A DNA stretch of 64,000 nt, taken from positions 159,640 through 223,639 of the forward strand of contig JAGBVR010000001.1 in assembly GCA_017630215.1 (NCBI GenBank). Reading direction: 5' to 3'. This document shows, piece by piece, positions 18,056 to 44,929 of the stretch. The notes beneath the pieces are model-generated. The model did not search any database and was not told where the DNA came from. It was given only the letters and a program-made list of their open reading frames with translations. Each line of letters starts with the position of its first letter. The stretch's first letter is position 1. Made by a program: the position numbers and the translations under genes. The stretch is from Bacteroidales bacterium (GTDB taxonomy: Bacteria; Bacteroidota; Bacteroidia; Bacteroidales; UBA932).

Positions 18056-18072
18056 AACTATATTCGTGCCAA
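18056..18072 (-). promoter_or_regulatory. Sigma-54-type promoter P2, internal to the permease array
   Basis: TTGGCACG-N4-TAGTT on the minus strand (18072 to 18056). The -24 element is a perfect match, and the -12 G has the required 10-base spacing. Transcription would start near 18046 and give a leader of about 118 bases ahead of permease B. The same -24 octamer occurs in P1 (44830-44846). Confidence 0.72.
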
Positions 18073-18127
18073 AATTTCTACTGTCTTGCATATCAATGCA
18101 TTGGCGTGTTCGTGCTTATTCTGCCAC

Positions 18128-18155
18128 TGTAAAGAAACTTTACACAATTGTAAAG
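18128..18155 (-). promoter_or_regulatory. Enhancer-like site of P2 (three half-sites)
   Basis: TGTAAAG-AAA-CTTTACA is a perfect 17-bp dyad, followed after 4 bases by another TGTAAAG. The same arrangement, with one base change, lies at 44902-44929. In both cases 55 bases separate it from the -24 box, although the sequence in between is unrelated. It fits a binding site for the NtrC-like activator encoded at 11294-12631. Confidence 0.7.
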
Positions 18156-18248
18156 TTAAAATTTATTTTATCCAGCATAAAATTAATTTTACCAGTGGCT
18201 GATCGTGAACAGGAAAGTTTCAAAAACCAAAGAAAAAGAAAAAAAATC

Positions 18249-18754
18249 ATGAAGAATTACAGATTAGCCGTCGATGAAAACGGCTCTCCGTTCGTCCTGA
18301 ACAGCAAAGGATCAATCGATTTCGGGTACATCACAGAGGAAATGAACCTGTCACCTGCTCCTATCAGGGTTGCTGAAGGAGATGAAAGTTATGGTCTTGC
18401 GCATATGGTCAAGAATCATTCTGATCAATTATCCCAATGTGGATTTGCTGACGTGCCAGCATTCGTGGAATATGTGACAGAACACTTTACAACAATCAAA
18501 GAAGGACATACCGGATCATATCTTCTGGAAGTTAATGAAGACAGGAACCATACATTATTCATATCCTTGTCCAGAACAGAAGATTATTGGAAAGTGATCA
18601 GTGGAGGAGTGTTCAGGCTGAAATATTCCAGAAATAAGAAAATGTCTATTCCGTACCCGCAATCCGGATGCCTGAACCTGTCCTTCAGGCAAAGGTTCCT
18701 GCTTCTGGTGAGATTCAACAGGACTCAACCGAAGCGAGCGGGAATTCCTTATAG
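18249..18754 (+). pseudogene. Frameshifted PBECR-type (barnase/EndoU/colicin-like) nuclease-domain gene
   Basis: From the ATG at 18249 the frame reads 'IDFGYITEEMNLSPAPIRVAEGDESYGLAHMVKNH..' and 'YWKVISGGVFR', which recalls the PBECR toxin domains carried at the ends of phage and conjugative-element proteins in Bacteroidales; the family call is from memory. After about residue 130, at AATAAGAAAATG (18632-18643), the expected continuation (ENVYSVPAIRMPEPV..ASGNSL, stop at 18752-18754) lies in another frame, so one base has been lost. Unshifted translation runs on to 18926 with junk and overlaps the next gene. It is the only plus-strand gene inside the array and starts about 94 bases from the P2 enhancer, so it looks like acquired cargo. 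Confidence 0.6.
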
Positions 18755-18830
18755 ACCTTTTCTGCCTGCAAATATATCAAAATTCATTCAAAATCAATGC
18801 TTTGGTCTGAATCTTTTATTGATATACCGA

Positions 18831-20816: not shown

Positions 20817-23096
20817 TTATTCCTTCTTCAGCGCCTCTGCAGGGTTGGTGCGCATGAGACGGATAGTCTGGAGGGAAACTGCAGCGATGGTAGCCAGCAG
20901 CGTAATGAGTATTGCCACAGCATAGATGCCAGGAGAATTTGCAATCCTGATCACATATGACTGCAGCCAATGGCTGACATACATATATGCCAAAGGGACT
21001 CCGATCAAGGCTCCAAACAAGACTGGGAATATGAATCCCCATATTGTTTCCCAGAAGATTTCCCTGCGCGATATTCCTAATACTTTACGTATGGCTGTGT
21101 CATGTGTGTGCAGGTGCGAGTAGTAACTGCTCAACGCCGTCAACGCCATGATTGTCAGGATTATGCAGAGGAGTGAAAATCCTCCGATTATCATACACGA
21201 ATTCCGCTCGGTGGTAAAGCTTTCCTTTACCATATCCTTCAATATCTTTACTGGATTGGCTGAAACATATCTATCCTCCATTGCTTCATCAAAGGCTTTG
21301 ACAATCTGATCTTTTGCATCGTGAATATCTCCGTTCACTTCTACCAGAAGCCAACCAATTCTTCCTTCTCTTTTTGTCAGATCGATGCATACGGCACCGT
21401 CAGTGATTGTTGCTGAATTGCCGAATTTGAAGTCACTTACAATGCCACCGTAGTGGTGTTTGATACTCTCTTTATCAACTCCGTTGCTTTCATACAAAGA
21501 TTCTATAATTCCTTGACTGCTTTTGGTAAAGTATGTATTCTCGTCATTATTGAAATCCTCAAGAATCTCTATCCCAAGTATTGATAAAGCCTCCCTGTCG
21601 CATTCCAATTCATAAGCGGAAATATGCGACTTCTTGTCTTTTATCCCTAGAGATCTTCTAGCATGCGAATATGATATAGGCGCCGAACTATATCGTCCTA
21701 CTCTATTTACACATGGCAGACTCTCCAGAATATTATATAGATCCACATCATCGTAATAATCATCTACCTCTATCAGGTCTTCCGTCCGGTATCCCAATGG
21801 TGTATTGATCATCTTTCGAGTCTGAAGATACATTACCAGAGAAATAGAAATAATTGTGATACATATTCCAGCCTGTACAGCAATGAAAACTCTGCCGAGA
21901 ATCATCTTGTCTTTCTTGAGACTTTCGCCTTTGATGACTTCTATCGGCTTTACTTTTCCCATACTGAATGCAGGAACGAGTGCTGCGATTACAGAGCATA
22001 AAATGATGACAACAGTTCCCCAGAGGATTTCCGTATTATTGCTGAATATGTCTATTTCGCTTCTTAGCAGTAATGACACATGCTTCTCCACTCCTACTGC
22101 GATTAACGCACCTGCAGCAAATGCCACAGATGTCAGCAGCAATGACTCAGCCAACAGACGTCTCATTATCTCCCACCTGGACGTACCAAGGAGCATTCTG
22201 GTGGCAATCTCCTTGGCTCTGAATCTCGAAAATGCTAATGTCAGGAAGATATAGTTCAATAGTGAAAATATCAGAAGTATAACACACACCGATATGAATT
22301 TCTTCTGCTGATTCAAATCTGAGAGATTCTGGAAGGGATCCGGGGCTCCGATGTTGACATCCAGCTCGTCAAATCTTGTGAATTTCAGCTCCGGTACTAA
22401 CCTTGATTTAAAGAACTCGTCGGTAGAATTGTAATATATATCATGAGCAAGCTTGCTGATGTCCGGACTACCATTGAATCTGACCAGATTTACAGCTCCT
22501 CTCCAGCCGCCTCTAGTCTCTATTGATGGGATAAGCCGCTCATTTACAAGTATATCTGTATTAAGTATCTGTGTATTCTTTACGTCCTTGAAGATACCCG
22601 TGACTATGAGATTTCTAATAGTACCATCATAATCAAACTCAATAGTCCTTCCTATAGGATTCTCTCCCGGGAAGTATCTTTCTGCAAATGATTCAGATAT
22701 GACAGCAGAGAATTCTTGTTTGAGCACTTCATCCGCATTTCCGGAAATCAATTTGTAAGGAAGGAACTCAAAGAAGTTATCTGAAACCCACATTGGATAG
22801 CGTTCTATTTGTTCGCCCTCCATGAAGACTCCTATATATGCATTGCAAAATTGGCAAAACTCCCTGACTTCCGGATATCTGGAAAATTCCTCAGCCAAGA
22901 AAGTAAATGATGTGGCACCTCCTGTATTGTGGCATAAGTATATCTCATCCTTATCCTTTATCTCCCTGTCGTATGATAAATTCTTGATCACATACGAACT
23001 CATCAGGATTATAAAGGCAAGGGACACACTTAGCCCCACCATCTCGATGACGGTATACACTTTGTTTCTTGAAAGGAATCTTATGTAGCTTTTCAT
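20817..23096 (-). CDS. Permease C: FtsX/MacB-type ABC permease, subtype 1
   Basis: 759 residues, the second shortest of the ten. It starts MKSYIRFLSRNKVYTVIEMV, the most changed N-terminus within subtype 1, and carries 'LNYIFLTLAFSRFRAKEIATRMLLGT'. The end, LMRTNPAEALKKE, is normal. In the array order it follows D (subtype 2), but 755 bases with a toxin-like gene and a small-RNA candidate now separate the two. The downstream flank shares GACATACTGGAAA with the flank downstream of D, and RhuM has landed there. Confidence 0.91.
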   Translation of the reverse strand: MKSYIRFLSRNKVYTVIEMVGLSVSLAFIILMSSYVIKNLSYDREIKDKDEIYLCHNTGGATSFTFLAEEFSRYPEVREFCQFCNAYIGVFMEGEQIERYPMWVSDNFFEFLPYKLISGNADEVLKQEFSAVISESFAERYFPGENPIGRTIEFDYDGTIRNLIVTGIFKDVKNTQILNTDILVNERLIPSIETRGGWRGAVNLVRFNGSPDISKLAHDIYYNSTDEFFKSRLVPELKFTRFDELDVNIGAPDPFQNLSDLNQQKKFISVCVILLIFSLLNYIFLTLAFSRFRAKEIATRMLLGTSRWEIMRRLLAESLLLTSVAFAAGALIAVGVEKHVSLLLRSEIDIFSNNTEILWGTVVIILCSVIAALVPAFSMGKVKPIEVIKGESLKKDKMILGRVFIAVQAGICITIISISLVMYLQTRKMINTPLGYRTEDLIEVDDYYDDVDLYNILESLPCVNRVGRYSSAPISYSHARRSLGIKDKKSHISAYELECDREALSILGIEILEDFNNDENTYFTKSSQGIIESLYESNGVDKESIKHHYGGIVSDFKFGNSATITDGAVCIDLTKREGRIGWLLVEVNGDIHDAKDQIVKAFDEAMEDRYVSANPVKILKDMVKESFTTERNSCMIIGGFSLLCIILTIMALTALSSYYSHLHTHDTAIRKVLGISRREIFWETIWGFIFPVLFGALIGVPLAYMYVSHWLQSYVIRIANSPGIYAVAILITLLATIAAVSLQTIRLMRTNPAEALKKE

Positions 23097-23158
23097 TTAT
23101 TTGTATGTCATTTTACTTTTTCAATAAACTGTCATACTGAAGACTAAATGGTTTATGA

Positions 23159-23189
23159 TTTGCTTTTATAATGAAAATAACTATCTTTG
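23159..23189 (+). promoter_or_regulatory. Strong Bacteroidota housekeeping promoter for a small RNA
   Basis: TTTG (23159-23162), 19 bases, then TATCTTTG (23182-23189): a perfect -33/-7 pair on the plus strand. No reading frame follows, but a hairpin at 23256-23280 does, so it should produce a short transcript. Confidence 0.75.
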
Positions 23190-23194
23190 CAGAG

Positions 23195-23290
23195 AAAGAT
23201 GAGAGTTGCATATAGGCGCGATAACATCAAGCTCCGCAGCCGTCTAGTTATACGAGGCCGTAAGTTCAATGCTTACGGCCTTAGTGTTTC
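23195..23290 (+). ncRNA. Probable small RNA of about 95 nt
   Basis: Bounded by the promoter 23159-23189 and the hairpin 23256-23280. Inside, GGCGCG can pair with CGC-AGCC around a short loop, so the RNA is probably structured. Its 3' end overlaps the end of the toxin-like gene read from the opposite strand, which allows antisense contact over about 15-20 bases. I do not assign it to a known family; a covariance-model search would decide. Confidence 0.5.
23256..23280. terminator. Hairpin shared by the small RNA and the toxin-like gene
   Basis: GGCCGTAAG pairs perfectly with CTTACGGCC across a 7-base loop. The stop codon of the minus-strand gene (23275-23273) lies inside the right arm. On the plus strand a weakly T-rich tail follows. 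Confidence 0.6.
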
Positions 23291-23752
23291 TAGTTTGGTT
23301 TCAATTTCTCTTCTTGTCTGATATCTTGCATTCACTCTGACTGCCTTCCCATAGAATACTACATAACAATCCGTAATCATGCATGATGTAAAATCGGTTT
23401 TCCTCCTTGAAATGTATTTGGATAGTGAAAATGAGTCAAGATGCATTACGTGTTCATCAAGGTCTATAACGACAATCTTACATCCTTGTCTCTTTGCAGA
23501 CTTGAATCCAGCTGTTATCCCTTTCTCGCTCATTACACCCTTTCTGTCACCCAATTCTTCACAAATTGTATACTCCGGATTCTTATGCCCGATAGCATAC
23601 GTATGAGGATTTATGCGTATACTGATCTCATCATATGACCGCAGAATAGCTCTGGCAGCCCTTATGTTGCTGCCTAACTCACTTTTGTCTGCATTGATAC
23701 TGATTAAGAGACGTTCCCCGAACTCCTCATCCAACAAATACTCAGTCTCCAT
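23273..23752 (-). CDS. Orphan CdiA C-terminal-like (tRNase-type) toxin domain protein
   Basis: 159 residues, no signal peptide. The core 'HKNPEYTICEELGDRKGVMSEKGITAGFKSAKRQGCKIVVIDLDEH', shown here only to locate it (about 55-101), and 'CYVVFYGKAVRV' resemble the toxin domains fused to MuF phage proteins and CdiA in Bacteroidales; this recognition is from memory. Here it is free-standing, without a delivery domain and without an evident immunity gene. It has its own consensus promoter (23776-23807) and lies between permeases D and C. It may be a captured toxin, an antidote-like decoy or a domesticated nuclease. Confidence 0.6.
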   Translation of the reverse strand: METEYLLDEEFGERLLISINADKSELGSNIRAARAILRSYDEISIRINPHTYAIGHKNPEYTICEELGDRKGVMSEKGITAGFKSAKRQGCKIVVIDLDEHVMHLDSFSLSKYISRRKTDFTSCMITDCYVVFYGKAVRVNARYQTRREIETKLETLRP

Positions 23753-23775
23753 ACATTAAGAATATGTTTCAGCGA

Positions 23776-23807
23776 CAAATGTAGGAATCCTTTTCTGTAT
23801 AATCAAA
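23776..23807 (-). promoter_or_regulatory. Housekeeping promoter of the CdiA-CT-like gene
   Basis: On the minus strand TTTG (23807-23804), 20 bases, TACATTTG (23783-23776). The gene therefore does not depend on transcription of the array. Confidence 0.7.
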
Positions 23808-23851
23808 CCTATTTAGTTTCCAGTATGTCAAAGAACTTTTCGTGTTATATT

Positions 23852-26191
23852 TTACTCCTTCTTCAACGCCTCTGCAGGGTTGGTGCGGGCTGCACGGCTG
23901 ACCTGCACAAAAACTGCTGAGAGTGAAATGATTACAGATATGGCCATTGCAAGAGCATATACCCACCACTTGTTGTCGATCCTGTATACAAATTCTTCAA
24001 GGTATCTCCCGCAGGCATAGATTGCTATCGGGAGCGCAATTATACAGGAAACCAGGACAATACGCATATATCTCCATGTGCTGACAAGCGTTTCAGAGCG
24101 AGCAGAGCTACCGTATATTTTTCGAATCGCTATGTCTGAGGTACTTTCAGATGAATAATAAGTGCTCATAGCAAGCAGACCCATAAAGGATAATATGATG
24201 GAAATCAGCATAAACAGATCCATTATCTTCGTCTGGTTATCAACTGTCTGAAGTTTCTTTGAAAGAAGATCTTTGATATATCCCGAATATGCAGGCTCCG
24301 TATATCGACCTTCCACAGATTCTACATATTTACGATATTCCTCATCTATCTTCTTTTTGTTGTCACCATGCTCACCAGTTGTTTTAATAAGCAATCCTGC
24401 GCCATTGGACATCCACGGAGAGAAATTTTTCGCATCCTGAATCTGTATATATGTAAGATAGCCCTCACTGTCGCGCAGGGCATCCAAAACAGCATAATCC
24501 TCCACAATTCCTCCGAATGTTATCGTTTCCTCACCTGCAAACAACGGGTGTTTTTCAATAAATCCAGCTTGAGATACCAGGGTGGAGTATGTCTGCTGAG
24601 GCATCCATATCGAATTCACAGTAGGATGGTTGTTAGCAGATGCTCTCTTGAAGTTATATAGGCGGAATGCGGTAGAGTCACATAGAATCATACCTATTTT
24701 GATCTCATTGCCTTCTCTGTCAAAAGTGTTAGTCTCAGTGGCTTGCCCAGGAAAACCTTCCGAAACACCAACTTCGCAGACAAAAGGAAGTTTCTTCAAT
24801 GCATTTTCAAGAGGCTCACGCCTATCGATGTCATTGACGTAAAGATAGTACAGATCACCAGTATCTGCCCCAACTGGCTTACTGATCATATGATTCATCT
24901 GTGACTGCATTGTAATGGCAAGCGCAATGAGCACAGTGGAAATGGTGTTCTGTAACAATATGAATGCTTTGCTGAATACTCTTTTATTGTCCCTTTTTAT
25001 ATCTCCCTTGATAACATACATTGGATGAACGGATATTCCTATGGAAGCAGGGATCAGGCCTGACACTACACCGACCAGAATAGCAGCGACTGCATATATA
25101 AGAATTGCGCCGAGGGAGTGGGAGACCTCTATGGGAATATCACTTCTGACCAGATTGTTGATGTAACCTTCAAGGACAATGGCGGTTACTATGGCAATGA
25201 TTCCACATATAAGGCTGATGCCGGCCGATTCAAATAAATATCTGTAAAACAACTTCTTCCTGCCAGCACCGATAATCATTCTTGAGGCAGTCTCCTTCAT
25301 TCTCTTTGTATACAGGGCCGTACTCAGATTCACAAAGTTAATGATTGCAGATGCAAACAGAAGGATCACGACAAACAACATAACCTTCAGCGACTTCAAG
25401 TCTGACTTGTTAAGCCACATATAGCCATACTTAGAAAAGAAGAGTTCTTTGCAGTTTACTATTATGCAGTCTGGCGACTTTAAGAATTCACCTTCTTCTG
25501 CAATTTTCTTCATTTCCTCCTCAATCTTAGGCTTAATCGTTTCAATATCAACGTCTTCTCTTAGCTTCAGAAATGGTATGGTGGTGCTATAGAATTTGAA
25601 TCTCTTCAGCCTTGAATTGATGTCGGAGTCGGGGTTGATGACTATGTCATAATCTTTGAATAAAGACTTCTTCTGCTCCTTCAGTACTGCGGCGACGACG
25701 AACTCTTTGTTTCTTAATATGACCTTTTTGCCAATGACTTCAACAGGGCCTCCGTTAGCATTAGCAAAGGACTCGCTTACAATTATATTTGATTTGTCAT
25801 CGAGCACATTGCAGGAACCATTCAAGAACTCAATTCCGAATATGTCAAAGAATCCCTTGTCTGCGCATATGGGCTTTGCCTGTATATTGATGCCGTCGCA
25901 TACGATATCCTGAAGTGGCATATCCAGATAACTTCCTGAGAGTTCGATCTCAGGAATATTGTCTCTTATCTTATCAGCGGCACCAAGATACAATCCGACT
26001 CGGGAAAATTCTCCAGTATCATATCCTAAGGAATATATCCTGTCATAATCCCTTATATTATGAGCAGTATTGAATTGTTGCCATACATAAGTGCCAATCA
26101 ATGTCACGAATGTAAGCGCAACGCTCAGCCCCACCGCCATGATCGTGGTGTACAGTTTGTTTCGGGAGAGGAATCTTAGGTATGATTTCAT
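23852..26191 (-). CDS. Permease D: FtsX/MacB-type ABC permease, subtype 2
   Basis: 779 residues from the ATG at 26191; an ATG 69 bases upstream is not conserved. Subtype 2 is marked by 'INFVNLSTALYTKRMKETASRMIIGAGR' and by an ending with 'RAARTNPAEALKKE'. It opens MKSYLRFLSRNKLYTTIMAV, closest to J (which has AIMAV). Its extracytoplasmic domains are Lys-rich and unlike those of its neighbours. In the original order it would pair with C (subtype 1). Confidence 0.91.
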   Translation of the reverse strand: MKSYLRFLSRNKLYTTIMAVGLSVALTFVTLIGTYVWQQFNTAHNIRDYDRIYSLGYDTGEFSRVGLYLGAADKIRDNIPEIELSGSYLDMPLQDIVCDGINIQAKPICADKGFFDIFGIEFLNGSCNVLDDKSNIIVSESFANANGGPVEVIGKKVILRNKEFVVAAVLKEQKKSLFKDYDIVINPDSDINSRLKRFKFYSTTIPFLKLREDVDIETIKPKIEEEMKKIAEEGEFLKSPDCIIVNCKELFFSKYGYMWLNKSDLKSLKVMLFVVILLFASAIINFVNLSTALYTKRMKETASRMIIGAGRKKLFYRYLFESAGISLICGIIAIVTAIVLEGYINNLVRSDIPIEVSHSLGAILIYAVAAILVGVVSGLIPASIGISVHPMYVIKGDIKRDNKRVFSKAFILLQNTISTVLIALAITMQSQMNHMISKPVGADTGDLYYLYVNDIDRREPLENALKKLPFVCEVGVSEGFPGQATETNTFDREGNEIKIGMILCDSTAFRLYNFKRASANNHPTVNSIWMPQQTYSTLVSQAGFIEKHPLFAGEETITFGGIVEDYAVLDALRDSEGYLTYIQIQDAKNFSPWMSNGAGLLIKTTGEHGDNKKKIDEEYRKYVESVEGRYTEPAYSGYIKDLLSKKLQTVDNQTKIMDLFMLISIILSFMGLLAMSTYYSSESTSDIAIRKIYGSSARSETLVSTWRYMRIVLVSCIIALPIAIYACGRYLEEFVYRIDNKWWVYALAMAISVIISLSAVFVQVSRAARTNPAEALKKE

Positions 26192-26248
26192 TGTCTTGTG
26201 TTTTGTTGCAGCACTTAAATGCCTGTATTTCAAATTGTTCCTTAAAGT

Positions 26249-26274
26249 GCGTGCTGCCATAGGGGAGCACGCAG
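26249..26274 (-). other. Covarying spacer hairpin, copy 2 (between D and E)
   Basis: TGCGTGCT pairs perfectly with AGCACGCA, the strongest stem of the set, about 58 bases before the start of D. On the mRNA strand it is followed by ACTTTAAGGAAC rather than a U-tract, so it is not a typical terminator. Confidence 0.55.
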
Positions 26275-26344
26275 ATAATGTAACTTGTTGTGCATCAGTG
26301 ATGTCGCTGTTGTGCCGTTATTGCCGTACAAAGCAGATATGGCG

Positions 26345-28696
26345 CTACTCCTTCTTCAGCGCCTCGGCAGGGTTGGTGCGCATCAGGCGAAGAGCCTGAA
26401 GGGTGACGGTAGCGAGGGTCACGAGCAGGACGATGGTGAGGGCGGCGAGGTATATGGCAGGGGAGTTTCCGATGCGGACAGGATAGGCCTGGAGCCATCG
26501 GCCAAAGTATGCGTACGACAATGGCATGGCAACGGCCGCACCGACCAGGACTGGTGCGATGAAGCCCCATACCGTCTTCCAGAAAACATCTCCGCGCGAG
26601 ATGCCGAATACCTTCCGCACGGCTGTATCGTGCCTGTTGGTCTGTGCATAATAGCTGCTGAGTGCGATGATCGCAAGGGCGGTCATGATCATGCATATAA
26701 TCGCAAATACGGCTATAAGTCTCATCATCCTGTTTTCATCTTCATAATTCATCATGGACCATTCCTCAAGGGTGTGGATACGTAACTGGTCATTGTACAG
26801 TCCCTTGTCCATATAGAACTGACGGATCGCATCCCTAGCTTCATACTGGTCGCCGGACACCTTGACAAGAAGGTTGTTGCCGACCCATTCTATGGCTGAA
26901 TCATCAATCTGCACCTCAAATATCGTCTTGCTTTTTTCCACTTCCTTGATGTTGCCGATATGAAAATCCTCCAATATTCCCACAATCCTGCCGGACCAGT
27001 CAATCTTTTCCAATGAATTGTGAATTTCATAGCTACTTTCAGACAGATAAGTCTGCCGGTTGAGCATACCTGAAATATCAAGATACTCCTTGACATTGAA
27101 GCCCAATATATCAAATGCAGACTGATCGCATGTGAGATAGCACCATTTTATATCGTCTTCAAGATTCTGTACTTGAGCATATCTTATGAACTCATTGATA
27201 GTGCATCCGATATCTTCTACAAAATGGAGATTGCGTAGCTCATCCTTATAATTCATATAAGATTTTTCATCTCCATTGATTTGTATGATGTTCTCCATAT
27301 TGTATCCTACCGGATAATCTGTCATCTTCTTTGTCTGCATCATGATACCGATACCGAAGACGACCGTCGCGATACAGATTGCGCTCTGGAAGCCGATGAA
27401 TATCTTGCCCATTACAGCTTTGTCGTGATAACGGCTTTCGCCGCGGATTACATCGATCGGGCGGTATCTTCTGTTGATCATGAAGTTGATTCCGCTTGCA
27501 CAGGCAGCTGTAAGTAAGGCTGTTATTATGATTGCAATTACAACGGCGGCATTTCCTAATGGTCTGATTTCCAAGCCGAAGAATGAACTTAATTCATTCT
27601 GGAATGCAAGTATAAGCAGGACAGCCATCACGCAGGAGCTGCTGACAAGAATCAATGCTTCTGCAAATCCTCTCAGCACGATTTCCCTGCTTGATGTGCC
27701 CAGCAAAGACCTTGTAGCAGCTTCCTTGAGTCTGAAACGTGAGAAGGCAACAGTCAGCGAAACGTAGTTCAGGAGCGCAAAAGCAAGTATGACTATACAT
27801 ATCAGGCTGAATGCGTTGGAGAACTTCGGATCCGAAATATTCAGATAATTATATGCTCGTATCTTTCCGTCCTTGATGTCCTCGAATGGAATGATGTCGG
27901 TCTGCTGGAAATCTCTATCTGTGTATTCGTTTCCAGTCTTGTGATTGCGGATAAGATCCTGTATAGCTTTGACATTCTTCTTCGAATCAGGTTTGAACAT
28001 CCATCCGTTCCTATGATACGGCGGTTCACAGAAACTTATGTACAGATCTGCATCTGGAAGAATGCACTTTCCCAATTCCTCCGCAATGCCTGTAATCGTA
28101 TATGTTCCTCTTATGTCACTCTCAGCGTGAAGACTGATGCTCTTTCCGATTGGATGTTCATCAGGAAAGACTGCATCGGCCAGATGCTTGGACAGCACGA
28201 CGTGACCTCTTGGCTCCAACGGTTTGGTATCCATGTCACTAGGTCCTGCCAATGCAAAGGCACCGCCTCCTGAACTCACAAAAGGCCTCTCCTCTCCATT
28301 GATCTTCAAGGCCTGCTCCTGATCGCCATGAATCAGGTCAATACCGAAGAAACTGAAGAAGTTTGAAGTAACCTCCATCGGGGAGACGAGCAGGCTGTCG
28401 CCATTCTCCTTCTTCATCTTCACTTGCCTGGCTGGGCTGAAACGGCACCACTCCTTGACCATCGGAATCTGATCGAGGAATGACCCTACACTTCCGTAAT
28501 GACCTATCGAGGCATACTCTCCCGTAGTTGCTAATGAATAAATTTCATCTGCGTACTTTATATCGTCATTGACCTGACTCTTCTCGATAAGTATCGAACC
28601 AAGAACGATAAGAAACGCCAGCGCAATGCTGAGGCCCACGACCTCGATCGCGGTGTACAATTTGTTCCGTGAGAGGAATCTCAGGTAACTTTTCAT
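26345..28696 (-). CDS. Permease E: FtsX/MacB-type ABC permease, subtype 1
   Basis: 783 residues. Subtype 1 core 'LNYVSLTVAFSRFRLKEAATRSLLGT'. The first extracytoplasmic domain has a Gly-rich insertion ('SSGGGAFALAGPSD', about 146-159) absent from the other permeases. The C-terminal third is very close to A ('WLQAYPVRIGNS', 'ALRLMRTNPAEALKKE'). It lies between F and D, both subtype 2. Confidence 0.92.
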   Translation of the reverse strand: MKSYLRFLSRNKLYTAIEVVGLSIALAFLIVLGSILIEKSQVNDDIKYADEIYSLATTGEYASIGHYGSVGSFLDQIPMVKEWCRFSPARQVKMKKENGDSLLVSPMEVTSNFFSFFGIDLIHGDQEQALKINGEERPFVSSGGGAFALAGPSDMDTKPLEPRGHVVLSKHLADAVFPDEHPIGKSISLHAESDIRGTYTITGIAEELGKCILPDADLYISFCEPPYHRNGWMFKPDSKKNVKAIQDLIRNHKTGNEYTDRDFQQTDIIPFEDIKDGKIRAYNYLNISDPKFSNAFSLICIVILAFALLNYVSLTVAFSRFRLKEAATRSLLGTSSREIVLRGFAEALILVSSSCVMAVLLILAFQNELSSFFGLEIRPLGNAAVVIAIIITALLTAACASGINFMINRRYRPIDVIRGESRYHDKAVMGKIFIGFQSAICIATVVFGIGIMMQTKKMTDYPVGYNMENIIQINGDEKSYMNYKDELRNLHFVEDIGCTINEFIRYAQVQNLEDDIKWCYLTCDQSAFDILGFNVKEYLDISGMLNRQTYLSESSYEIHNSLEKIDWSGRIVGILEDFHIGNIKEVEKSKTIFEVQIDDSAIEWVGNNLLVKVSGDQYEARDAIRQFYMDKGLYNDQLRIHTLEEWSMMNYEDENRMMRLIAVFAIICMIMTALAIIALSSYYAQTNRHDTAVRKVFGISRGDVFWKTVWGFIAPVLVGAAVAMPLSYAYFGRWLQAYPVRIGNSPAIYLAALTIVLLVTLATVTLQALRLMRTNPAEALKKE

Positions 28697-28746
28697 GGCT
28701 ATAGGTGTATTGTAATTTATTGATTGCTAATGATTTACTTATTGTT

Positions 28747-36273: not shown

Positions 36274-36308
36274 GATATTCAAATGTTATTCTTTCAATAC
36301 TCCCGAAT

Positions 36309-38726
36309 TTACTCCGTCTTCAACGCCTCCGCAGGATCGGTATTCGCAGTCTTCCATGAACGAACAGTCACAAGTGCTACAGTAACTGCAAGGACGAGAA
36401 CTAAAGCTACGATATATATCCAGTATGGGGTTGCGATCCTGTTTGCAAATTGTTCCAACCATCGTGAAGATAACATCCATGAAACAGGTGCGGCAATGAT
36501 GAAACAGATGAGTACGATGCCAACATATCTGCTATTGAGCATTGAAACCATCTGCATAGTTGTTCCTCCATATACCTTGCGAACTGCAATTTCGCTTCGA
36601 CGGTATTGAGTCTCAAACATTACAATGCCGAACACTCCCATCAGTGCAATTACAATCGCCAATATTGCAAACAGGCCAATAAGCACCATATCCTTCTTCG
36701 TCTGTTCATACAGGCTCTCAACCCATTCTTCCAAGTAATGGAGCTCAGGCTCATCGGCAGCTGGAGCAAGTTCCTCTGAAATACTCTTTACATAGTCAGC
36801 AAAGCCTTTAAAATCAGCTCCGCCACGCAGACGGATATAGAAATGACTCATCCTGTCTTTTTCTGAAACACAGTAGAATGCATGATACTCGTCTGGTTGA
36901 CTTACCGATGTCAAACGAACATCTCGTATGATGCCGACATATTTCATAGCACCTTCTTCGTGTCCCAGTGGTATACCGATATCTCGGTGCATCTGCTGAG
37001 TCATGACAATCTCATTAGTTCGCTCCGATGATGGGGTAAAGCCGTTTCCTTCGAGAATGTCAAAGCCAAAGAAATCAAGAAAATTCCAACGGACTCCGTT
37101 TGACTTCATTGAATAATCCCTTTCCTGATAAACTCGTCCCCATCTCTGGTTGCAGCTGAGAAGATTCATCTGGGAGGCTGTTACATTTTCTGCATCTGGG
37201 TGTTGCATGAGACGCTCTATGACAGTTTCAGACCGGGTACTCAAGTCCCAAGAAGCAAATGTCACTACATTTTCCCTGTCAAATCCCAGATCGTATGTAG
37301 TCATATACCTGTATTGGAGGTAGAAGACAGCTGTTGTGATAATCAATACCATAGCAACGGTAAACTGTAGCCCCACCATGACAGCACGCAGCTTTCGTCC
37401 AGTTGCAGATTGTGCAAAACCATTCTTGACTCCTAATGACGCATTGAAGCGAGTGATGTAGAACGCCGGATAGAGTGCAGCTCCAAACGCCAGCAGCACC
37501 ATCAAGGCAAGAATCATCATAAAGACCGGAATATTGTCAGCAATAGCAAGGGAACAGATTGAAAAATCAGTTATGAAACTATCCTTGATTCCTATTATGA
37601 CACATAAAGTCAAAGCCATTGACAGCAGGACAAATCCGATTGCCTCAAACAGAAAGTTCCAACGCAATGATCTCTGACTCGCACCGAACACTTTGCACAC
37701 ATTGACAGATCGCATACGTATCGGAACGAGAGCAAAGAAGAAATTGATAAAGTTAATAAAGGCTATAAGCACAATTATCAACGCTATACTTGACAGAATA
37801 ATAGGAGTTGACTTCTTACCTGTCTGAAAATTACCGGAATCGTGAAACTCCGTATAGTACATCTTATCAACGCGTACGAGACGTGTGGCGAGCATATGAG
37901 CGCCATTCTCTATCTCGGCTTCTATTTCAGCTTTATATTCTGGCTCTTCCTCGATCCATTCTTTCATCATTCCAAGTTTCCACTCAGCATAACGCTGCCT
38001 GAATACATCGATATAGCCGTTTATATCAGTCCCTTCCTTAAAACGGACATAGTTACAGTAGTTCCAATTATTGGTTTCTGTGGTATAAACCTTCTCATCA
38101 TGTTGCATTATGCCCCAATGTCCGAAAATGCAATTTTTCGGCATATCCTCATATATGGCTACGACTGTCTGCTGGTGAGCAGGTTTTCCATCATCGTGCC
38201 AGCGTCCACCCTCAAACCAAATGGTTTCACCTACGCCAATACCCAGCTTCTCTGCCACAGAACGTGAAAAAATTACAGTATTCGGGTCTTTCAAACCCGC
38301 AAAGTCTCCACTGAGACACTCGAATCCAAAGAAGTCCGGAACATTAGGCGTACCTTGATATACATATTCGTTGAACGGCTCAAAGTGACAGTCATTCTCC
38401 TTTATCCACACACGGCTTATTGCAGGATAGGGAGCAACTGAAGCCACCTCTTCTGTACCCGGATATGCCTCCATTACTTCGTACGCCAATGCTCCAGGAG
38501 AGTTAGGGCTCCAGTGCATCTCGTTAGGATCTCCACCGAAATTTGGAGAAATCAGGTAAGTGTGCTCGGTGTCCTTCAGACAGCTATTATATGTAAGGGT
38601 GTACCATACTTGTGAAGCGATAACGTAAAACGCAACAAAAGCAAAGGTAAGCCCGATCACATTCAATAGCGACGCAGTCTTGAAGCGACGAAGCGTTGTA
38701 AGAAAATTTGATATATGTGCATTCAT
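36309..38726 (-). CDS. Permease I: divergent FtsX/MacB-type ABC permease
   Basis: 805 residues and the odd one out. It lacks the MKSYLRF opening and begins 'MNAHISNFLTTLRRFKTASLL', the form usual for stand-alone Bacteroidota MacB-type permeases. It ends NTDPAEALKTE. The first ectodomain is rich in Trp and acidic residues. Its FtsX core 'RRSEIAVRKVYGGTTMQMV' is canonical. Together with the ATPase next door it may represent the ancestral transporter to which the MKSYLRF-type genes were added. Confidence 0.9.
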   Translation of the reverse strand: MNAHISNFLTTLRRFKTASLLNVIGLTFAFVAFYVIASQVWYTLTYNSCLKDTEHTYLISPNFGGDPNEMHWSPNSPGALAYEVMEAYPGTEEVASVAPYPAISRVWIKENDCHFEPFNEYVYQGTPNVPDFFGFECLSGDFAGLKDPNTVIFSRSVAEKLGIGVGETIWFEGGRWHDDGKPAHQQTVVAIYEDMPKNCIFGHWGIMQHDEKVYTTETNNWNYCNYVRFKEGTDINGYIDVFRQRYAEWKLGMMKEWIEEEPEYKAEIEAEIENGAHMLATRLVRVDKMYYTEFHDSGNFQTGKKSTPIILSSIALIIVLIAFINFINFFFALVPIRMRSVNVCKVFGASQRSLRWNFLFEAIGFVLLSMALTLCVIIGIKDSFITDFSICSLAIADNIPVFMMILALMVLLAFGAALYPAFYITRFNASLGVKNGFAQSATGRKLRAVMVGLQFTVAMVLIITTAVFYLQYRYMTTYDLGFDRENVVTFASWDLSTRSETVIERLMQHPDAENVTASQMNLLSCNQRWGRVYQERDYSMKSNGVRWNFLDFFGFDILEGNGFTPSSERTNEIVMTQQMHRDIGIPLGHEEGAMKYVGIIRDVRLTSVSQPDEYHAFYCVSEKDRMSHFYIRLRGGADFKGFADYVKSISEELAPAADEPELHYLEEWVESLYEQTKKDMVLIGLFAILAIVIALMGVFGIVMFETQYRRSEIAVRKVYGGTTMQMVSMLNSRYVGIVLICFIIAAPVSWMLSSRWLEQFANRIATPYWIYIVALVLVLAVTVALVTVRSWKTANTDPAEALKTE

Positions 38727-38952: not shown

Positions 38953-39633
38953 TTACAGTTCGTTCTTCACATCGCTGACGATCTGGCCGTCGAAGAGGTT
39001 GACGATGCGCTGAGCACAGGCTGCGTCTTTCTGTGAGTGGGTCACCATCACGATGGTTGTGCCTTCCTTGTTAAGTTCTGTGAGGAGGTCCATCACTTCC
39101 TTACCATTCTTCGAGTCGAGGTTACCGGTAGGCTCATCGGCGAGGATCAGCTTAGGATTCGATACGACTGCACGGGCGATGGCAACGCGTTGCTGCTGAC
39201 CTCCAGAGAGCTGCTGTGGGAAGTGCTGTGCACGGTGGCTTATGTTCATTCTCTTGAGCATTTCGGTTACGCGAGCCTTGCGCTCTGATGCGCTGATGTT
39301 GAGATATCTCAAAGGAAGCTCTACATTCTCAAATACGTTAAGTTCATCAATGAGATTGAAACTCTGGAACACGAAACCGATGTTTCCCTTACGGAACTTT
39401 GTGCGGTCCTTCTCCTTGAGTTTGGCAACTTCCTGTCCGAGAAGCATGTAGCTTCCGTCAGTAGGGTTGTCAAGAAGGCCAAGGATGTTCAGTAGGGTAG
39501 ACTTACCGCAACCTGATGGGCCCATGATGGCTACAAATTCGCCGTCCTTGATTTCGAATGAAACCTTGTTGAGTGCTGTTGTCTCGATTTCCTCTGTGCG
39601 GAAAACCTTGCTGAGGTCTGTTACTTTGATCAT
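38953..39633 (-). CDS. ABC transporter ATPase of the MacB/LolD family (only one in the array)
   Basis: 226 residues, stand-alone nucleotide-binding domain. Walker A GPSGCGKST (38-46), Q-loop Gln90, signature LSGGQQQR (142-149), Walker B LILADEPTGNLD (162-173) and a downstream H-loop in 'VMVTHSQKDA'. The Q-loop neighbourhood 'FVFQSFNLIDELNVFENVELPL' is typical of the LolD/FtsE/MacB group, which drives mechanotransmission rather than pumping through the membrane. It sits between J and I and must serve all ten permeases unless other ATPases are encoded elsewhere. Confidence 0.95.
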   Translation of the reverse strand: MIKVTDLSKVFRTEEIETTALNKVSFEIKDGEFVAIMGPSGCGKSTLLNILGLLDNPTDGSYMLLGQEVAKLKEKDRTKFRKGNIGFVFQSFNLIDELNVFENVELPLRYLNISASERKARVTEMLKRMNISHRAQHFPQQLSGGQQQRVAIARAVVSNPKLILADEPTGNLDSKNGKEVMDLLTELNKEGTTIVMVTHSQKDAACAQRIVNLFDGQIVSDVKNEL

Positions 39634-39669: not shown

Positions 39670-42003
39670 TTACTCTTTTTTTAATGCCTCTGCCGGATTA
39701 GTGTGGGCTGCCTGGAGGGTCTGCCAGAGGACTGAGGCGATGGATACTGCGAGGACCGCAAGAGCGGCGACTGCGAATATCCATATAGGCAGATCCATCT
39801 TATATACAAAGGTTTCAAGGTATCGTCCGGCAACCCATACTGAAACCGGAATAGCAATCACCGAAGCTATCAGGCAGTATCCTATATACTCGAAGATATT
39901 GCGGATACTTTCACTACGGACAGTTCCTCCGAAGACCTTGCGGATGCCGATTTCCTTCTCCCTTTCGGTCGCATAATATGTACTCATGGCAATCTGACCG
40001 AGAGCAGAAAGCAGGATGGCTATGATCATGAATATGATAACCATCTTCATCTGATTCATCATACCTTCATATTCTTTCTCAATCTTATACGGAATATAAC
40101 CGGACATATCCGGCGCATGCGGACCACGGATGCGTATTGCCTCCTCCCTGCATAGCCTGTCAAGTTCCATGAGGTTTTCGCCTGAAGGATCGAGTATTTC
40201 AACTATAAAGTCTCCGCATAATCCAGACTGTCTGTTCCTAGGAACAAGATTAATGACACCAACTTCATCAAGATTCAGATTTTTTGCCGATGACATCTGT
40301 ACATCCTCAAGGATTCCTGCAAGATCGGTAGTTCCGCATATCCATGAGAATGCCTGAGGCAGAACCGGATTATTCTCGTCAAGTTCCAGCAATCTGAATG
40401 CACTTTCCGTAAGCCAGACTCCCGCATTGCCTTGCAGCCCATAATTTCTTACGATCTTGAAGTCAAACATCGAAAATGAAGCAGAATCGCAGTTGCAGAC
40501 ATTGAATTTTCCACGCTTTGAATGGTCTTCATTCAACGGGATACCGATGGTCATATATTTCTGTCCCGGCCTTCCGTCTGCCTTACCGATTCTTCCTACA
40601 TATGGAAGAGATGAGAGCGTCTCTTCAAAACTGTTTTCTGCTAGTTTGACTTCATACAGTCCTTCTACGTTTGCATTCAGCGGCATGTCTATCATATGCC
40701 TGATTTGTGATGACATAATCAACGAAACCGCAATGATAACTATTGCTATTGCATTCTGAATAATAATAAAGACCTTACTGAAGATTCTTTTTCTGCTATA
40801 TCTGAATTCCCCTTTGATTATTTCTATCGGCTTGAAGTTAGAGGTCATCAATACAGGGATGATTCCGCAGAATAAGGTGGCCACTACCATAATCAGCAGA
40901 TACATATATAAAAATCCGTCTGTGAGTCTCATCTCAATCGGTATAGGAGAATCTATCAGTCTGTTGACAAGCGGAAGAAGAAGATGTGCCGTCAGAAATG
41001 CTGCTGACATGCAGACAATTATGAATACTATAGATTCAGTAATACATCTGACAAATATTCTGCTGCGAGATTCACCCACAAGTGCTCTGGTTGCAATCTC
41101 TTTGCTTCTCCTGCCGGTCAGTGCTGTATTGAGGTTGATATAATTGAAGATTGCCGATATCAGAAGAAATACCACTATCATGCTGAATGCAGTCATCAGT
41201 CCTTTGTTACCTTTCTTAAGCCCGGACATTCCTTCATTAACATCATCCATGTACAATTTATCCAATCTGGTAAGCGAAAAGTGCTTTTCATTTCTTCGGT
41301 ACTTTTCTTCCAGACTATCTTCAAGCATTTTATCCAACTTTTCTGTAAGTCCGGTGATGTCTGTACCTTCAGCAACCTTTATGAATGTGAACATGCCGCT
41401 TGACCACATTCCCAATTGTTCATCCCTATTCTTGTCGAAACGTGGGGCTCTTGTATTGAAGATGATTTCCGCGTTATCAAATATGGTATCTTCGAATCCT
41501 TCAATCACAGCACCGACACGAAATTCGCCTCCATAAAATTCATCTTTGATTATTTTGCCGAGAACATTTTCACCTCCAAATTTTTCAGCCAGGCTTCTGG
41601 ATATTATCACATTACTGAAATCGTTGAATGATTCCTTGCTGCCATAAACGAATTCTGTCGGAAACATATCAAAGAAATCCGGATCCACACCCATGAATTC
41701 CTCCTTCTCCAAAGCTACTCCGTCCATGGAGTATTTTCCGTATCGGTTCATCACCGTAACAGCCTTCTCCACTTCCGGAAAATTATCTTGAATGGACTGT
41801 CCTAAGGTAAAGTTCGACAAGATATTGCCGAAACCGCCGACAATGAATATTCTATCTGCATCCGGATACATCCTGTTAACTCTCATATTCTGCCATACGA
41901 AGCAGGACATGATGATCACGAATGCCAGCGATACACTAAGGCCCACCGCCATGATAGCAGTGTACAATTTGTTCCTTGTTAGAAATCTTAAATAACTTTT
42001 CAT
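39670..42003 (-). CDS. Permease J: FtsX/MacB-type ABC permease, subtype 2, promoter-proximal
   Basis: 777 residues. Opens MKSYLRFLTRNKLYTAIMAV; core 'FNYINLNTALTGRRSKEIATRALVGESR'; end 'QAAHTNPAEALKKE' with His in place of Arg. First permease after the adaptor gene (40 bases) and 36 bases before the ATPase, so the adaptor-J-ATPase block looks like the basal tripartite pump. Confidence 0.92.
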   Translation of the reverse strand: MKSYLRFLTRNKLYTAIMAVGLSVSLAFVIIMSCFVWQNMRVNRMYPDADRIFIVGGFGNILSNFTLGQSIQDNFPEVEKAVTVMNRYGKYSMDGVALEKEEFMGVDPDFFDMFPTEFVYGSKESFNDFSNVIISRSLAEKFGGENVLGKIIKDEFYGGEFRVGAVIEGFEDTIFDNAEIIFNTRAPRFDKNRDEQLGMWSSGMFTFIKVAEGTDITGLTEKLDKMLEDSLEEKYRRNEKHFSLTRLDKLYMDDVNEGMSGLKKGNKGLMTAFSMIVVFLLISAIFNYINLNTALTGRRSKEIATRALVGESRSRIFVRCITESIVFIIVCMSAAFLTAHLLLPLVNRLIDSPIPIEMRLTDGFLYMYLLIMVVATLFCGIIPVLMTSNFKPIEIIKGEFRYSRKRIFSKVFIIIQNAIAIVIIAVSLIMSSQIRHMIDMPLNANVEGLYEVKLAENSFEETLSSLPYVGRIGKADGRPGQKYMTIGIPLNEDHSKRGKFNVCNCDSASFSMFDFKIVRNYGLQGNAGVWLTESAFRLLELDENNPVLPQAFSWICGTTDLAGILEDVQMSSAKNLNLDEVGVINLVPRNRQSGLCGDFIVEILDPSGENLMELDRLCREEAIRIRGPHAPDMSGYIPYKIEKEYEGMMNQMKMVIIFMIIAILLSALGQIAMSTYYATEREKEIGIRKVFGGTVRSESIRNIFEYIGYCLIASVIAIPVSVWVAGRYLETFVYKMDLPIWIFAVAALAVLAVSIASVLWQTLQAAHTNPAEALKKE

Positions 42004-42043
42004 AAATTATTCTATTAGACTCCTATAAAATCGAGGATGACGA

Positions 42044-43300
42044 TTAAAATATCAACACTTCATTATCTCCAAAATTGTCATACCCCGAAGTTATGACTTT
42101 TTCGCCAGGCTCAAGGCCTTCGAGCACTTCGTAGTACTGCGGATTCTGACGTCCGATGCGGATCTCGCGTTTCACAGCCTTGCCTCCGTCAGGGGATACA
42201 ACATAGATCCACTTGCCTCCCGTCTTCTGGTAGAATGTGCCGCGTGGAATAAGGACTGCGCTTTCAGGCTGCCCGAGCTGGAGGTTAAGATAATAGGTCT
42301 GACCGGTGCGGATATTCGCAGGTTGCTCTCCGCTGAACTTGAAGTCGGCCTGGAACTTTCCGCTGCGCACTTCCGGATATACCTTGCGGATGACCGCGTC
42401 GTAGGTCTCGTTCTGTCGCTCAAATGTTGCAGTAAGACCAGCTGAAACCCTGTCAATATAATGCTCGTCAATAAGCGCTTCGATCTTATAGCTATCCAGA
42501 GCGTTGATCTGACCAATCTTCGCTCCGCTGCCAATTGACTGTCCAAGAACTACTTCCAGCAGACCGAGCTCACCGTCAATCGGAGCCTTGACCGCCAGAT
42601 TTTCTTTTCGATTACGGATCCTCTGCATATTCAGCTTCATGTTCTTGAGGCTTTCCTCCATCTGCTGGATCTGCACAGTTCTGTAGATACTATCCTGCTC
42701 TGCACGGGCCAATGTCACCTCCAGTTTCTTGCAATAAAGAGTATAGTCTTCCTCCGAGCGGAGATATTCCTCCTTTCCGATCAAGCCATCGTTGAAAAGT
42801 CTCTTCTGCGATTCAAGAGTACGTCCCTTGCGCTTGACTTCTGTTTCAAGCTCAAGGATATTCAGGCTCAGCTGCATCTTCTCCTGCTCCATCTGGATCA
42901 TCGTGTTTCGCAGCGCGTTCTCCTTCTCCGCGAGGTTCGCCTCAGAATTGAGAATCTCCATATCAAGGTCATCATTGCTTAGGCGGATAATCACATCACC
43001 AGCCTTAACCTGTGTGCCTTCCTCGATCACGATCTCCTCGACGATACCTGACTCGCGGGGACTGAGCTGGATGGTTGTCATAGGATGCACCTGACCGCTT
43101 ACGCGGATATAATCATTGAATTCGCCTGCGCTTACCTCGCTGATTGTCAGTGTGTCAGCATTGACGCGAAGGGTGCTTGAGTCGTCGCGGAATATGAGCC
43201 ATATAATGAATATAGCCATAAATCCTCCGAACCAATATGGGAGTGCCTTGCTGGTGAATGCCAATGCCAAGCCTTTCTTTTTTTCAATAGGTTTATCCAT
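42044..43300 (-). CDS. HlyD/MacA-type periplasmic adaptor
   Basis: 418 residues, anchored by one N-terminal helix (about 14-37). A lipoyl/barrel-sandwich half-motif (about 64-100, 'GIVEEIVIEEGTQVKAGDVIIRL') leads into a long coiled coil (about 105-225). The second half-motif ('KAPIDGELGLLEVVLGQSI') and beta-barrel and membrane-proximal domains follow ('GEKVITSGYDNFGDNEVLIF' at the end). It should link the permeases to the TolC-like channel. Only 2 bases separate it from the tolC stop codon, so the two are surely cotranscribed. Confidence 0.93.
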   Translation of the reverse strand: MDKPIEKKKGLALAFTSKALPYWFGGFMAIFIIWLIFRDDSSTLRVNADTLTISEVSAGEFNDYIRVSGQVHPMTTIQLSPRESGIVEEIVIEEGTQVKAGDVIIRLSNDDLDMEILNSEANLAEKENALRNTMIQMEQEKMQLSLNILELETEVKRKGRTLESQKRLFNDGLIGKEEYLRSEEDYTLYCKKLEVTLARAEQDSIYRTVQIQQMEESLKNMKLNMQRIRNRKENLAVKAPIDGELGLLEVVLGQSIGSGAKIGQINALDSYKIEALIDEHYIDRVSAGLTATFERQNETYDAVIRKVYPEVRSGKFQADFKFSGEQPANIRTGQTYYLNLQLGQPESAVLIPRGTFYQKTGGKWIYVVSPDGGKAVKREIRIGRQNPQYYEVLEGLEPGEKVITSGYDNFGDNEVLIF

Positions 43301-43302
43301 AG

Positions 43303-44775
43303 TTACATTATCATTTCATTTACATCTATCTCAAGATCTTCACCCTTTATGAAGTCATACAGTGTTGCCTGACGAAGGCTGTAGTAGAATGTCCAGAAGT
43401 TGCTGACATCGCTGATCCACTGACGGAATGCGCTGTCATTCTCTGTCTGGGCCATGTTCAGGTCTGTCACTGTTGCATTGCCTTCCTTAAAGCGGTGCAT
43501 TGTCAGTTCATACCTTTCTGCTGCAATCCTCATGGCCCTCTCTGAAACCATGCACTGCTGTCTTTGATTATTGAACTGGCTTACTGCAGTGAACATCTGC
43601 CTTCTGTAGTCGTTCTCATACTGCTGTACCTGGGCCTTGACAACCTCCTGTGCTGCCTTTGCCTTCTGCACCTTTCCTTTGCCCAAGCCCCAGTCAAAGA
43701 TCGGGATACTGAAGGTAATGCCGACAGTCTCCTGGTCAAGCAGATTCTTGTATGCCTGAGGGAACTCCGGACCTGTCTGAGACATACCGAAACGGGCATT
43801 CAGAGCAAATGAGAAGCCCCTCGATGCCTTTGCCCTTGCCACATTGGACTCTGCATTCAACAGACTCAGTTCATTATCCAGACAGAAACTTGAATTCTCA
43901 AGAGCCTTCTGCATTACAAGTTCATAATCCATCTGAACCATTGGCAATTCAGCGCTCATATCAGGAATGATTTCAAAGGACTCATCATAACCAAGAAGGG
44001 AGTTCAGCACCATCTGCGCTTCGCGTACCTGCACAGCGGTCTCATTGATGGCAATGCTGTCGTTAAGCATTCGCAGCTCAAGCTGAAGATATTCCGCCTT
44101 TGTCACATTGCCCAGCTGAAGCCTCTCCTTCGCGATCTTGAGCATGTTGCCCGAGTTCTCGAAGTTGCTCTGGCTGATCTCATTATTCATCTGTGCAAGC
44201 AGGAGATTGTGATAAGCGTAGACGACATTGATTGTAATCGCCTCCATTGCCTCCAGATAGTCCCTCTTTCCCTTTTCATAGGCCTTAGGCTCTATCTTCT
44301 TGTCCCATTTGAACTGATTGTAGGTAAAGAGTGGCTGGTAATACGACACCGTTATCGGGCGCGAATACCAGGTCAGGCTCTTGTTGCTTCCGAACTGGTC
44401 TATTCGTGAGAGGTCCGAGAATACGGAAAGAGTACCTCCTGTAAAAGTAATGTTCTGATTCATCTGCAGGCCCACTCCGTTCTGAAGATTGTTCGAGCTA
44501 ACATACTTCAGGCTTCCGTCTTCAGGGTTCTGAAGCAGTGTGAGCGAACGGTCGAAGTTCATGATATCTCCATAAAGGTAGAACGATGGAAGTCTGCTAG
44601 CCTTATAAGAACGATAAGCCCAATATGTAGATATGAATGCCTGTCGTGCCTCCAATGCCTCGACAGACTGATGCCGCGCAGTATGGATAGCCTCATCAAG
44701 GCTCATCTCATTCTGAGCCGACAAAGTCGTCAAAGCCGGCACCAAGGTCAGTAGCGTCAATAAAAGTCTCTTCAT
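43303..44775 (-). CDS. TolC-family outer-membrane efflux channel
   Basis: 490 residues with a signal peptide cut near 20-21 (ALTTLSAQ). Two long alpha-helical repeats, the second beginning near 'MQKALENSSFCLDNELSLLNAESNVARAKAS', and the outer-membrane efflux motif 'GITFSIPIFDWGLGKGKV' identify the family. It is the first gene behind the sigma-54-type promoter 44830-44846 and so heads the 26-31 kb array. Confidence 0.93.
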   Translation of the reverse strand: MKRLLLTLLTLVPALTTLSAQNEMSLDEAIHTARHQSVEALEARQAFISTYWAYRSYKASRLPSFYLYGDIMNFDRSLTLLQNPEDGSLKYVSSNNLQNGVGLQMNQNITFTGGTLSVFSDLSRIDQFGSNKSLTWYSRPITVSYYQPLFTYNQFKWDKKIEPKAYEKGKRDYLEAMEAITINVVYAYHNLLLAQMNNEISQSNFENSGNMLKIAKERLQLGNVTKAEYLQLELRMLNDSIAINETAVQVREAQMVLNSLLGYDESFEIIPDMSAELPMVQMDYELVMQKALENSSFCLDNELSLLNAESNVARAKASRGFSFALNARFGMSQTGPEFPQAYKNLLDQETVGITFSIPIFDWGLGKGKVQKAKAAQEVVKAQVQQYENDYRRQMFTAVSQFNNQRQQCMVSERAMRIAAERYELTMHRFKEGNATVTDLNMAQTENDSAFRQWISDVSNFWTFYYSLRQATLYDFIKGEDLEIDVNEMIM

Positions 44776-44829
44776 CAGGTTTTATTATGAAATTATAACG
44801 GCCAATGTCAATTGGTCCGCATCCCAATG

Positions 44830-44846
44830 AACATCAGCCGTGCCAA
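44830..44846 (-). promoter_or_regulatory. Sigma-54-type promoter P1 of the transporter array
   Basis: TTGGCACG-N4-ATGTT on the minus strand (44846 to 44830). The -24 octamer is perfect, and the -12 G is in register. Transcription would begin near 44820, 45 bases before the tolC ATG. Confidence 0.75.
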
Positions 44847-44901
44847 ATGTTATAATGTATTGATGTACAGACTTTTATTAAATTTACCCGTCAAGGGCAA
44901 G

Positions 44902-44929
44902 TGTAAAGAAATTTTACACTTTTGTAAAG
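44902..44929 (-). promoter_or_regulatory. Enhancer-like site of P1 (three half-sites)
   Basis: TGTAAAG-AAA-TTTTACA, 4 bases, TGTAAAG: the same order, orientation and spacing as at 18128-18155, again exactly 55 bases from the -24 box. Confidence 0.72.

Follow-up and report, generated by a model that had tools for sequence, protein, structure and literature searches.

Sigma-54 promoters of the NtrC and NifA type combine upstream activator sites with an IHF-induced bend, and in the usual description their enhancers tolerate changes of distance. The locus described here lies in a window of 64,000 nucleotides from a gut-type Bacteroidales bacterium and resembles that class in its tandem palindromic sites, in an AAA+ activator with a receiver and a Fis-type helix-turn-helix (HTH), in an IHF-like site within the spacer and in its -24/-12 promoters. 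Unlike that class, it carries the palindrome TGTAAAG-N3-CTTTACA, keeps a spacing of mostly 51-55 bp across an order, and has export pumps rather than nitrogen genes as predicted targets. For a sigma-54 regulon, this geometry appears unusually strict.

In Bacteroidia, sigma-54 promoters have been predicted to be enriched for ABC-type antimicrobial peptide permeases (COG0577), which was termed first evidence (PMC12316311), so that the link of sigma-54 to export permeases is not new. That system shares with the present one the sigma factor, the target family and the class of bacteria; the available text of the report describes promoter enrichment, and neither an activator site nor its spacing or a bend site was found there; "palindrom", "upstream activating" and "IHF" do not occur in it. 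Sigma-54 (SM4) promoters have also been mapped in Flavobacterium psychrophilum and linked to protein quality control and envelope stress (PMC9723704); these are likewise Bacteroidota sigma-54 promoters but, in the text available, with no activator assigned and with other targets named. The open-licence literature searched yielded no described binding site for Bacteroidota sigma-54 activators, and no description of activator site, spacing or bend site for such permease promoters.

Promoters, palindromes and export genes in the window

The promoters, sites, export genes and NtrBC-like genes of the window lie on the minus strand. The promoter P1 (44830..44846) precedes a series of genes that, by profile match, encode a TolC-like outer membrane efflux protein (OEP, 43303..44775), an HlyD-type periplasmic adaptor (42044..43300), an FtsX/MacB-type permease (39670..42003) and an ABC ATPase (38953..39633). 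Seven further FtsX/MacB-type permeases occupy 20817..38726, and a 159-aa ORF at 23273-23752 has no Pfam match. The promoter P2 (18056..18072) stands upstream of two more MacB/FtsX-type permeases (13010..17952, profile matches), the first with its ORF start at 17952, and the NtrC- and NtrB-like genes come after these. The darobactin and macrolide exporter models of NCBIfam (DarB, DarC, DarD, MacB) are among the closest named models for the adaptor and the ATPase, and the array proteins score below their cut-offs. After the NtrB-like gene, a 313-aa lipoprotein-like ORF (9049-9990) was noticed, for which NCBIfam gives no more than a weak match, to the BT3442 family.

Both promoters, where the first-pass annotation had placed them, carry TTGGCACG as the -24 box, with its GG, and a G at -12 at the right spacing, reading TTGGCACGGCTGATG for P1 and TTGGCACGAATATAG for P2. 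The first T of TTGGCACG in P1 precedes the start of the TolC-like ORF (44775) by 71 bp, and the assignment of P1 draws additionally on the -12 TG found family-wide (see below). Both promoters lack the C that canonically follows the -12 G, and in P2 the -12 step reads AG, not TG. Common to the two leaders is CTTTACA-N4-TGTAAAr-TTT-CTTTACA, then exactly 55 bp, as the same annotation had counted, and then TTGGCACG; on the minus strand, P1 reads CTTTACA AAAG TGTAAAA TTT CTTTACA and P2 reads CTTTACA ATTG TGTAAAG TTT CTTTACA, each followed by 55 bp and by TTGGCACGGCTGATG or TTGGCACGAATATAG, respectively. P1 and P2 are best read as sigma-54 promoters of one regulon.

The window contains the core palindrome TGTAAAGN3YTTTACA twice, whereas 100 dinucleotide shuffles gave a mean of 0.00. 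At P1, the proximal candidate activator site is the 17-bp palindrome TGTAAAATTTCTTTACA (44902..44918, gap of 55 to the -24 box), and 21 bp further upstream lies a distal candidate site, TTTAGAAAGACTTTACA (44923..44939, gap 76, score 35.9), of which one half is degenerate. At P2, a palindrome match marks the proximal candidate site TGTAAAGTTTCTTTACA (18128..18144) and a sequence match marks the outer half-site CTTTACA (18149..18155), with no clear remainder of a distal palindrome. In relatives, the second 17-bp palindrome, 21-22 bp further upstream, is in many cases complete, and at P1 it is half eroded. The elements of the enhancer proposed at first, TGTAAAG-N3-yTTTACA-N4-TGTAAAG, are thus all present; the outer TGTAAAG is the surviving half of a second palindrome, which corrects the reading as a single unit of three half-sites to one of two tandem dimer sites accompanied by an IHF-like site.

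Recurrence, spacing and a putative bend site in related bacteria

The observation is real and reaches beyond the window, to related bacteria with a like arrangement. The organism's own assembly is partial (2.26 Mb, 58% complete). It contains the full pattern three times, and the reversed control gave 0. The third copy (G000:C7:18283-18196, minus strand) also has a gap of 55 bp, but it reads TTGGCGCG and is without the G at -12. Its leader is P1-like and homologous to that of P1, and it adjoins an esterase-like gene (L010:18196-18283; PF00756). In a 40-kb stretch around it, the sole match to an array protein is an ABC ATPase of 35% identity about 16 kb away, with no export operon nearby, and the copy looks like what is left of an operon that was lost or has moved. 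When one mismatch was allowed in the bare palindrome, this genome gave 12 rows against 7 in the reversed control, and the five extra places (L005-L009, 6 rows), not being above control, were dropped. The gene rpoN, whose absence would have spoken against sigma-54 promoters, is present (PF04552, E 1e-52).

For the three-half-site pattern followed by TGGC at any distance of 40-70, a scan of 150 genomes, the organism's own included, returned 19 match rows, spread over 8 genomes, and the reversed control had none; the rows correspond to 18 sites, since TGGC recurs at one site, which is therefore listed twice. At every site the distance to the first TGGC was 53-56 bp. The gap is 54-55 in members of the genus that carry the pattern and mostly 51-55 more widely. 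An rpoN match was found in 137 of the 150 genomes, the own genome among them; among the 8 pattern-bearing genomes it was absent from one, G066, which is 71% complete.

A collection of species genomes (84,980 by its description) was then scanned for TGTAAARN3YTTTACA-N40-70-TTGGCAC, again with the gap free between 40 and 70, which gave at least 117 loci and at least 125 distinct matches. Among the matches listed, 106 of 125 fell at gaps of 50-56 (in phase). Named genera were assigned to groups by what we take to be their membership in counting the labels of the 117 loci listed, and the 94 loci that bore the label Bacteroidales, Bacteroidia or that of a member group were without exception in phase, compared with 1 of 14 from other phyla (L204, a Sphingomonadales genome), 1 of 4 from flavobacteria or Chitinophagales (L178, a flavobacterium), 1 of 2 labelled only Bacteroidetes and 1 of 3 labelled only bacterium (L119). 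The 19 out-of-phase loci listed include none from Bacteroidales or Bacteroidia, one labelled only Bacteroidetes and two labelled only bacterium. Listed gaps outside the order scatter from 40 to 69 and serve as a built-in chance control. L178, L204 and L119 do not carry the expected labels, so that chance probably accounts for a few in-phase matches; this may apply to L119 and L204 in particular, as their first genes are not export-like by eye.

Within the order, 295 genomes (own included) were scanned at gaps from 9 to 101. Of 81 matches, 29 lay at 50-56, 23 at 73-77 and 29 over the other 81 lengths, that is, 4.1, 4.6 and 0.36 matches per gap length; the peak at 73-77 represents the distal palindrome. 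The window shuffles, the reversed controls and the concentration of gaps among the matches listed from the species collection led us to reject a chance origin. Conservation of helical phase alone, with displacement by one turn allowed, is not supported, since 3 matches lay at 40-49 and 6 at 57-70 in the 295 genomes and no out-of-phase locus among the 19 listed is labelled Bacteroidales or Bacteroidia. Spacing is kept across genomes with unrelated spacers, in agreement with the initial argument that a conserved length with diverged sequence points to selection.

From the matches listed, 77 non-redundant in-phase spacers were aligned on the promoter, and two elements that were not part of the search pattern emerged, the -12 TG and an IHF-like WATCAA-N4-TTR. 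At the -12 step of these spacers, T occurs in 82%, G in 95% and C in only 36%, and TG is present in 60 of the 77; over all matches listed, TG was found in 88 of 106 in phase versus 11 of 19 out of phase. The second element, ATCAA-N4-TT(A/G), ends 7 bp before TTGGCAC in the alignment. We call it IHF-like after what we take to be the IHF consensus, WATCAANNNNTTR, a label that does not identify the binding protein. At one offset, 40 of the 77 spacers scored at least 7/9 against this consensus, compared with a mean of 1.25 and a maximum of 8 in 2000 shuffles of the spacers and with 1 of the 19 out-of-phase spacers listed; the other 37 of the 77 fall below 7/9 at this fixed position. Counting either orientation at 7/9 or better, 16 of the 77 listed spacers carry both, 24 the forward only, 5 the reverse only and 32 neither, and the forward and reverse elements overlap in the family, giving a near-symmetric element.

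In the window, P1 has its IHF-like element, CATCAATACATTA (44853..44865), at the family's fixed place with 8/9 consensus positions. At P2, the fixed forward position scores only 6/9, and a reverse-oriented element with 9/9, CAATGCATTGATA (18091..18103), lies 12 bp upstream of the fixed place. The initial claim that the two 55-bp spacers are altogether unrelated is corrected here: in sequence they are, yet they are not featureless, because the P1 spacer has its 8/9 match at the fixed position. A consensus element is thus present between enhancer and promoter, as in IHF-assisted sigma-54 promoters, and bending is predicted only. The own genome has three HU/IHF-family matches. One of them (G000:C6:2871-3140) contains an in-frame TAG, for which a pseudogene, an assembly error or a frame end are possible.

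The genes behind these promoters point to export. Among the matches listed, a homolog of a window-array protein (TolC, HlyD, FtsX or ABC) lies within 700 bp downstream in 59 of 99 in-phase placements and in 1 of 17 out-of-phase placements; these counts leave out placements at contig ends (9 in-phase, 2 out-of-phase) and include two matches twice, each being carried by two loci. For the remaining 40 in-phase placements (39 loci), 46 first ORFs were taken, a few of them from placements already classed. Pfam analysis of 10 of the 46 identified 4 outer-membrane efflux proteins, 4 DUF2807 proteins and 2 carboxypeptidase-regulatory-domain proteins, one of which also has an outer-membrane beta-barrel; on visual inspection, many of the remaining 36 seem TolC-like. 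The DUF2807 (head GIN domain) genes, behind in-phase promoters at L104, L128, L136 and L207, form a second recurrent target class.

The linked NtrC-like regulator

The NtrBC pair noted earlier at the end of the array was recovered by profile match. The response regulator (11294..12631), the proposed binder of the palindromes, has a receiver, a sigma-54 AAA+ domain and a Fis-type HTH, with Response_reg, Sigma54_activat and HTH_8 all over cut-off; the sensor kinase (10066..11274) shows a weak PAS match and a HATPase domain, and a reading of its sequence gives one segment of membrane type and no clear periplasmic sensor. We call the regulator NtrC-like, not NtrC, because it reaches 340 bits against the cut-off of 558.6 for NCBIfam ntrC (TIGR01818), on which ground an ordinary NtrC nitrogen regulator was rejected; none of the best 25 of 81 NCBIfam models reached its cut-off. 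The AAA+ loop reads GAFTDA, not GAFTGA, and the fifth position is D in 57 of 59 orthologs, with H or N in the other two. GAFTDA is among the loop variants said to retain function in the accessible part of one report (PMC4641369). Surveys requiring GAFTGA would drop this activator family, as would the filter described in the available text of PMC12316311, where only GAFTGA sequences were kept.

Co-occurrence, and proximity in many genomes, tie the motif to this gene, whose product would be the binder. An ortholog at E<=1e-130 is present in 11 of the 15 order genomes with the in-phase motif versus 35 of the 280 others (Fisher p 3.7e-7 over 295 genomes, with shared ancestry ignored), and at 63% identity or more in 7 of 15 versus 4 of 280; the ortholog is accordingly missing from 4 and 8 of the 15, respectively. 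Of 23 loci fetched for the NtrC-like gene alone, 9 have the in-phase composite site, one (L086) has the distal site only, and 13 have neither in the stretch taken, among them L095 with a composite at gap 65. Mononucleotide shuffling of the 35 loci scanned gave 2 matches, both outside 50-56. At L070, L072, L073 and L086 the site lies just upstream of a solitary ntrC, with no array genes found within 18-20 kb around it at the tblastn threshold used, which is as expected of self-regulation; at L043 and L054 the palindrome is also directly upstream of ntrC. In the window, a gap of 378 bp precedes ntrC and may hold a promoter of its own.

Upstream regions of 59 ntrC genes contained a TGT-N11-ACA palindrome in 17 cases. 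Eight belong to orthologs with a P-type recognition helix (SRPTLY), 7 of them with TGTAAAG, and nine to orthologs with a Q-type helix ([ST]RQTLY), 8 of them with a TGTC or GACA half-site. G212 breaks the rule, combining an in-phase TGTAAA motif with a helix of the Q type, and most P-type upstream regions are without such a palindrome, many of these ntrC genes lying inside arrays and others not. This is weak evidence for a link between half-site and recognition helix, which a single clade change could explain. Upstream of [ST]RQTLY orthologs of 50-56% identity at L254, L259, L262, L267 and L269, tandem 17-bp sites, again 21-22 bp apart, mix TGTC[TA]AA or TT[AGT]GACA halves with TGTAAA, possibly a sister specificity.

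Proposed mechanism and alternative explanations

Very probably, the linked NtrBC-like pair runs a regulon for envelope export from enhancer-dependent sigma-54 promoters, with binding, bending and activation as predicted steps. The NtrB-like kinase would phosphorylate the NtrC-like regulator on a presumed cell-envelope or toxic-compound signal. Regulator dimers would occupy the two 17-bp palindromes (TGTAAAG-N3-CTTTACA), which lie in tandem 21-22 bp from each other, and would assemble the AAA+ hexamer, while an HU/IHF-type protein would bend the spacer at the fixed TTGATwATCAA-N4-TTR element. The hexamer would then remodel the sigma-54 polymerase held at TTGGCACG and the -12 G. P1 would drive the TolC, HlyD, permease and ATPase genes, and P2 the last permeases and probably ntrBC, as a positive loop; operon extent and exported substrate are likewise putative.

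The promoters could be sigma-54 promoters whose TGTAAAG palindromes are bound by another activator or an unrelated factor. A second strong PF00158 match in the own genome (G000:C15:106853), receiver-less as judged from its sequence, whose loop reads GSFTGA and whose helix, ISERTLYRKLKQF, differs, would be a candidate. The motif, however, tracks the NtrC-like ortholog (11/15 vs 35/280), it stands upstream of some solitary ntrC genes, and the half-sites differ, with exceptions, between the SRPTLY and [ST]RQTLY groups, so that we consider this alternative improbable. Much less probable still is that the palindromes are repressor operators or other sites beside an ordinary promoter, with TTGGCAC a coincidence. 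The missing C of the -12 box in P1 and P2 would fit this, as would TAGTTTTG in P2, which resembles what we take to be the housekeeping -7 box of the phylum; on the other side stand the -12 TG, which emerged unsearched in the wider set of listed matches, and the distance to TTGGCAC, mostly 51-55 across the unrelated spacers of those matches.

The homologous leader common to P1 and the third copy might suggest that the likeness is the inheritance of one duplicated leader with no selection on distance. Simple duplication is disfavoured by the unrelated spacers of P1 and P2, and, among the matches listed, 77 non-redundant spacers stay within 50-56 and 40 of them keep the position of the bend site, which leaves this explanation hardly credible. 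The regulon run by the linked NtrBC-like pair is the reading we retain, and the interpretation given first is supported after three corrections, to the outer half-site, to the range of the gap and to the featureless spacer.

A bolder extension of it, possible and proposed tentatively, is that Bacteroidales have a rigid sigma-54 "enhanceosome", in which tandem dimers, the promoter and a near-symmetric bend site of a form that suits a homodimer (YAA-N4-TTGATwATCAA-N4-TTR) would be held at near-fixed distances for an activator of the GAFTDA class, and in which half-sites would have changed with the helix (SRPTLY vs [ST]RQTLY). If so, distance and bend would be part of the code of the envelope-export regulon. 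The spacers of the relatives offer a natural series for asking how strict the distance from activator to promoter is. With a site, a geometry, a likely activator and targets, the computational hint of sigma-54-controlled permeases becomes a directly testable regulon.
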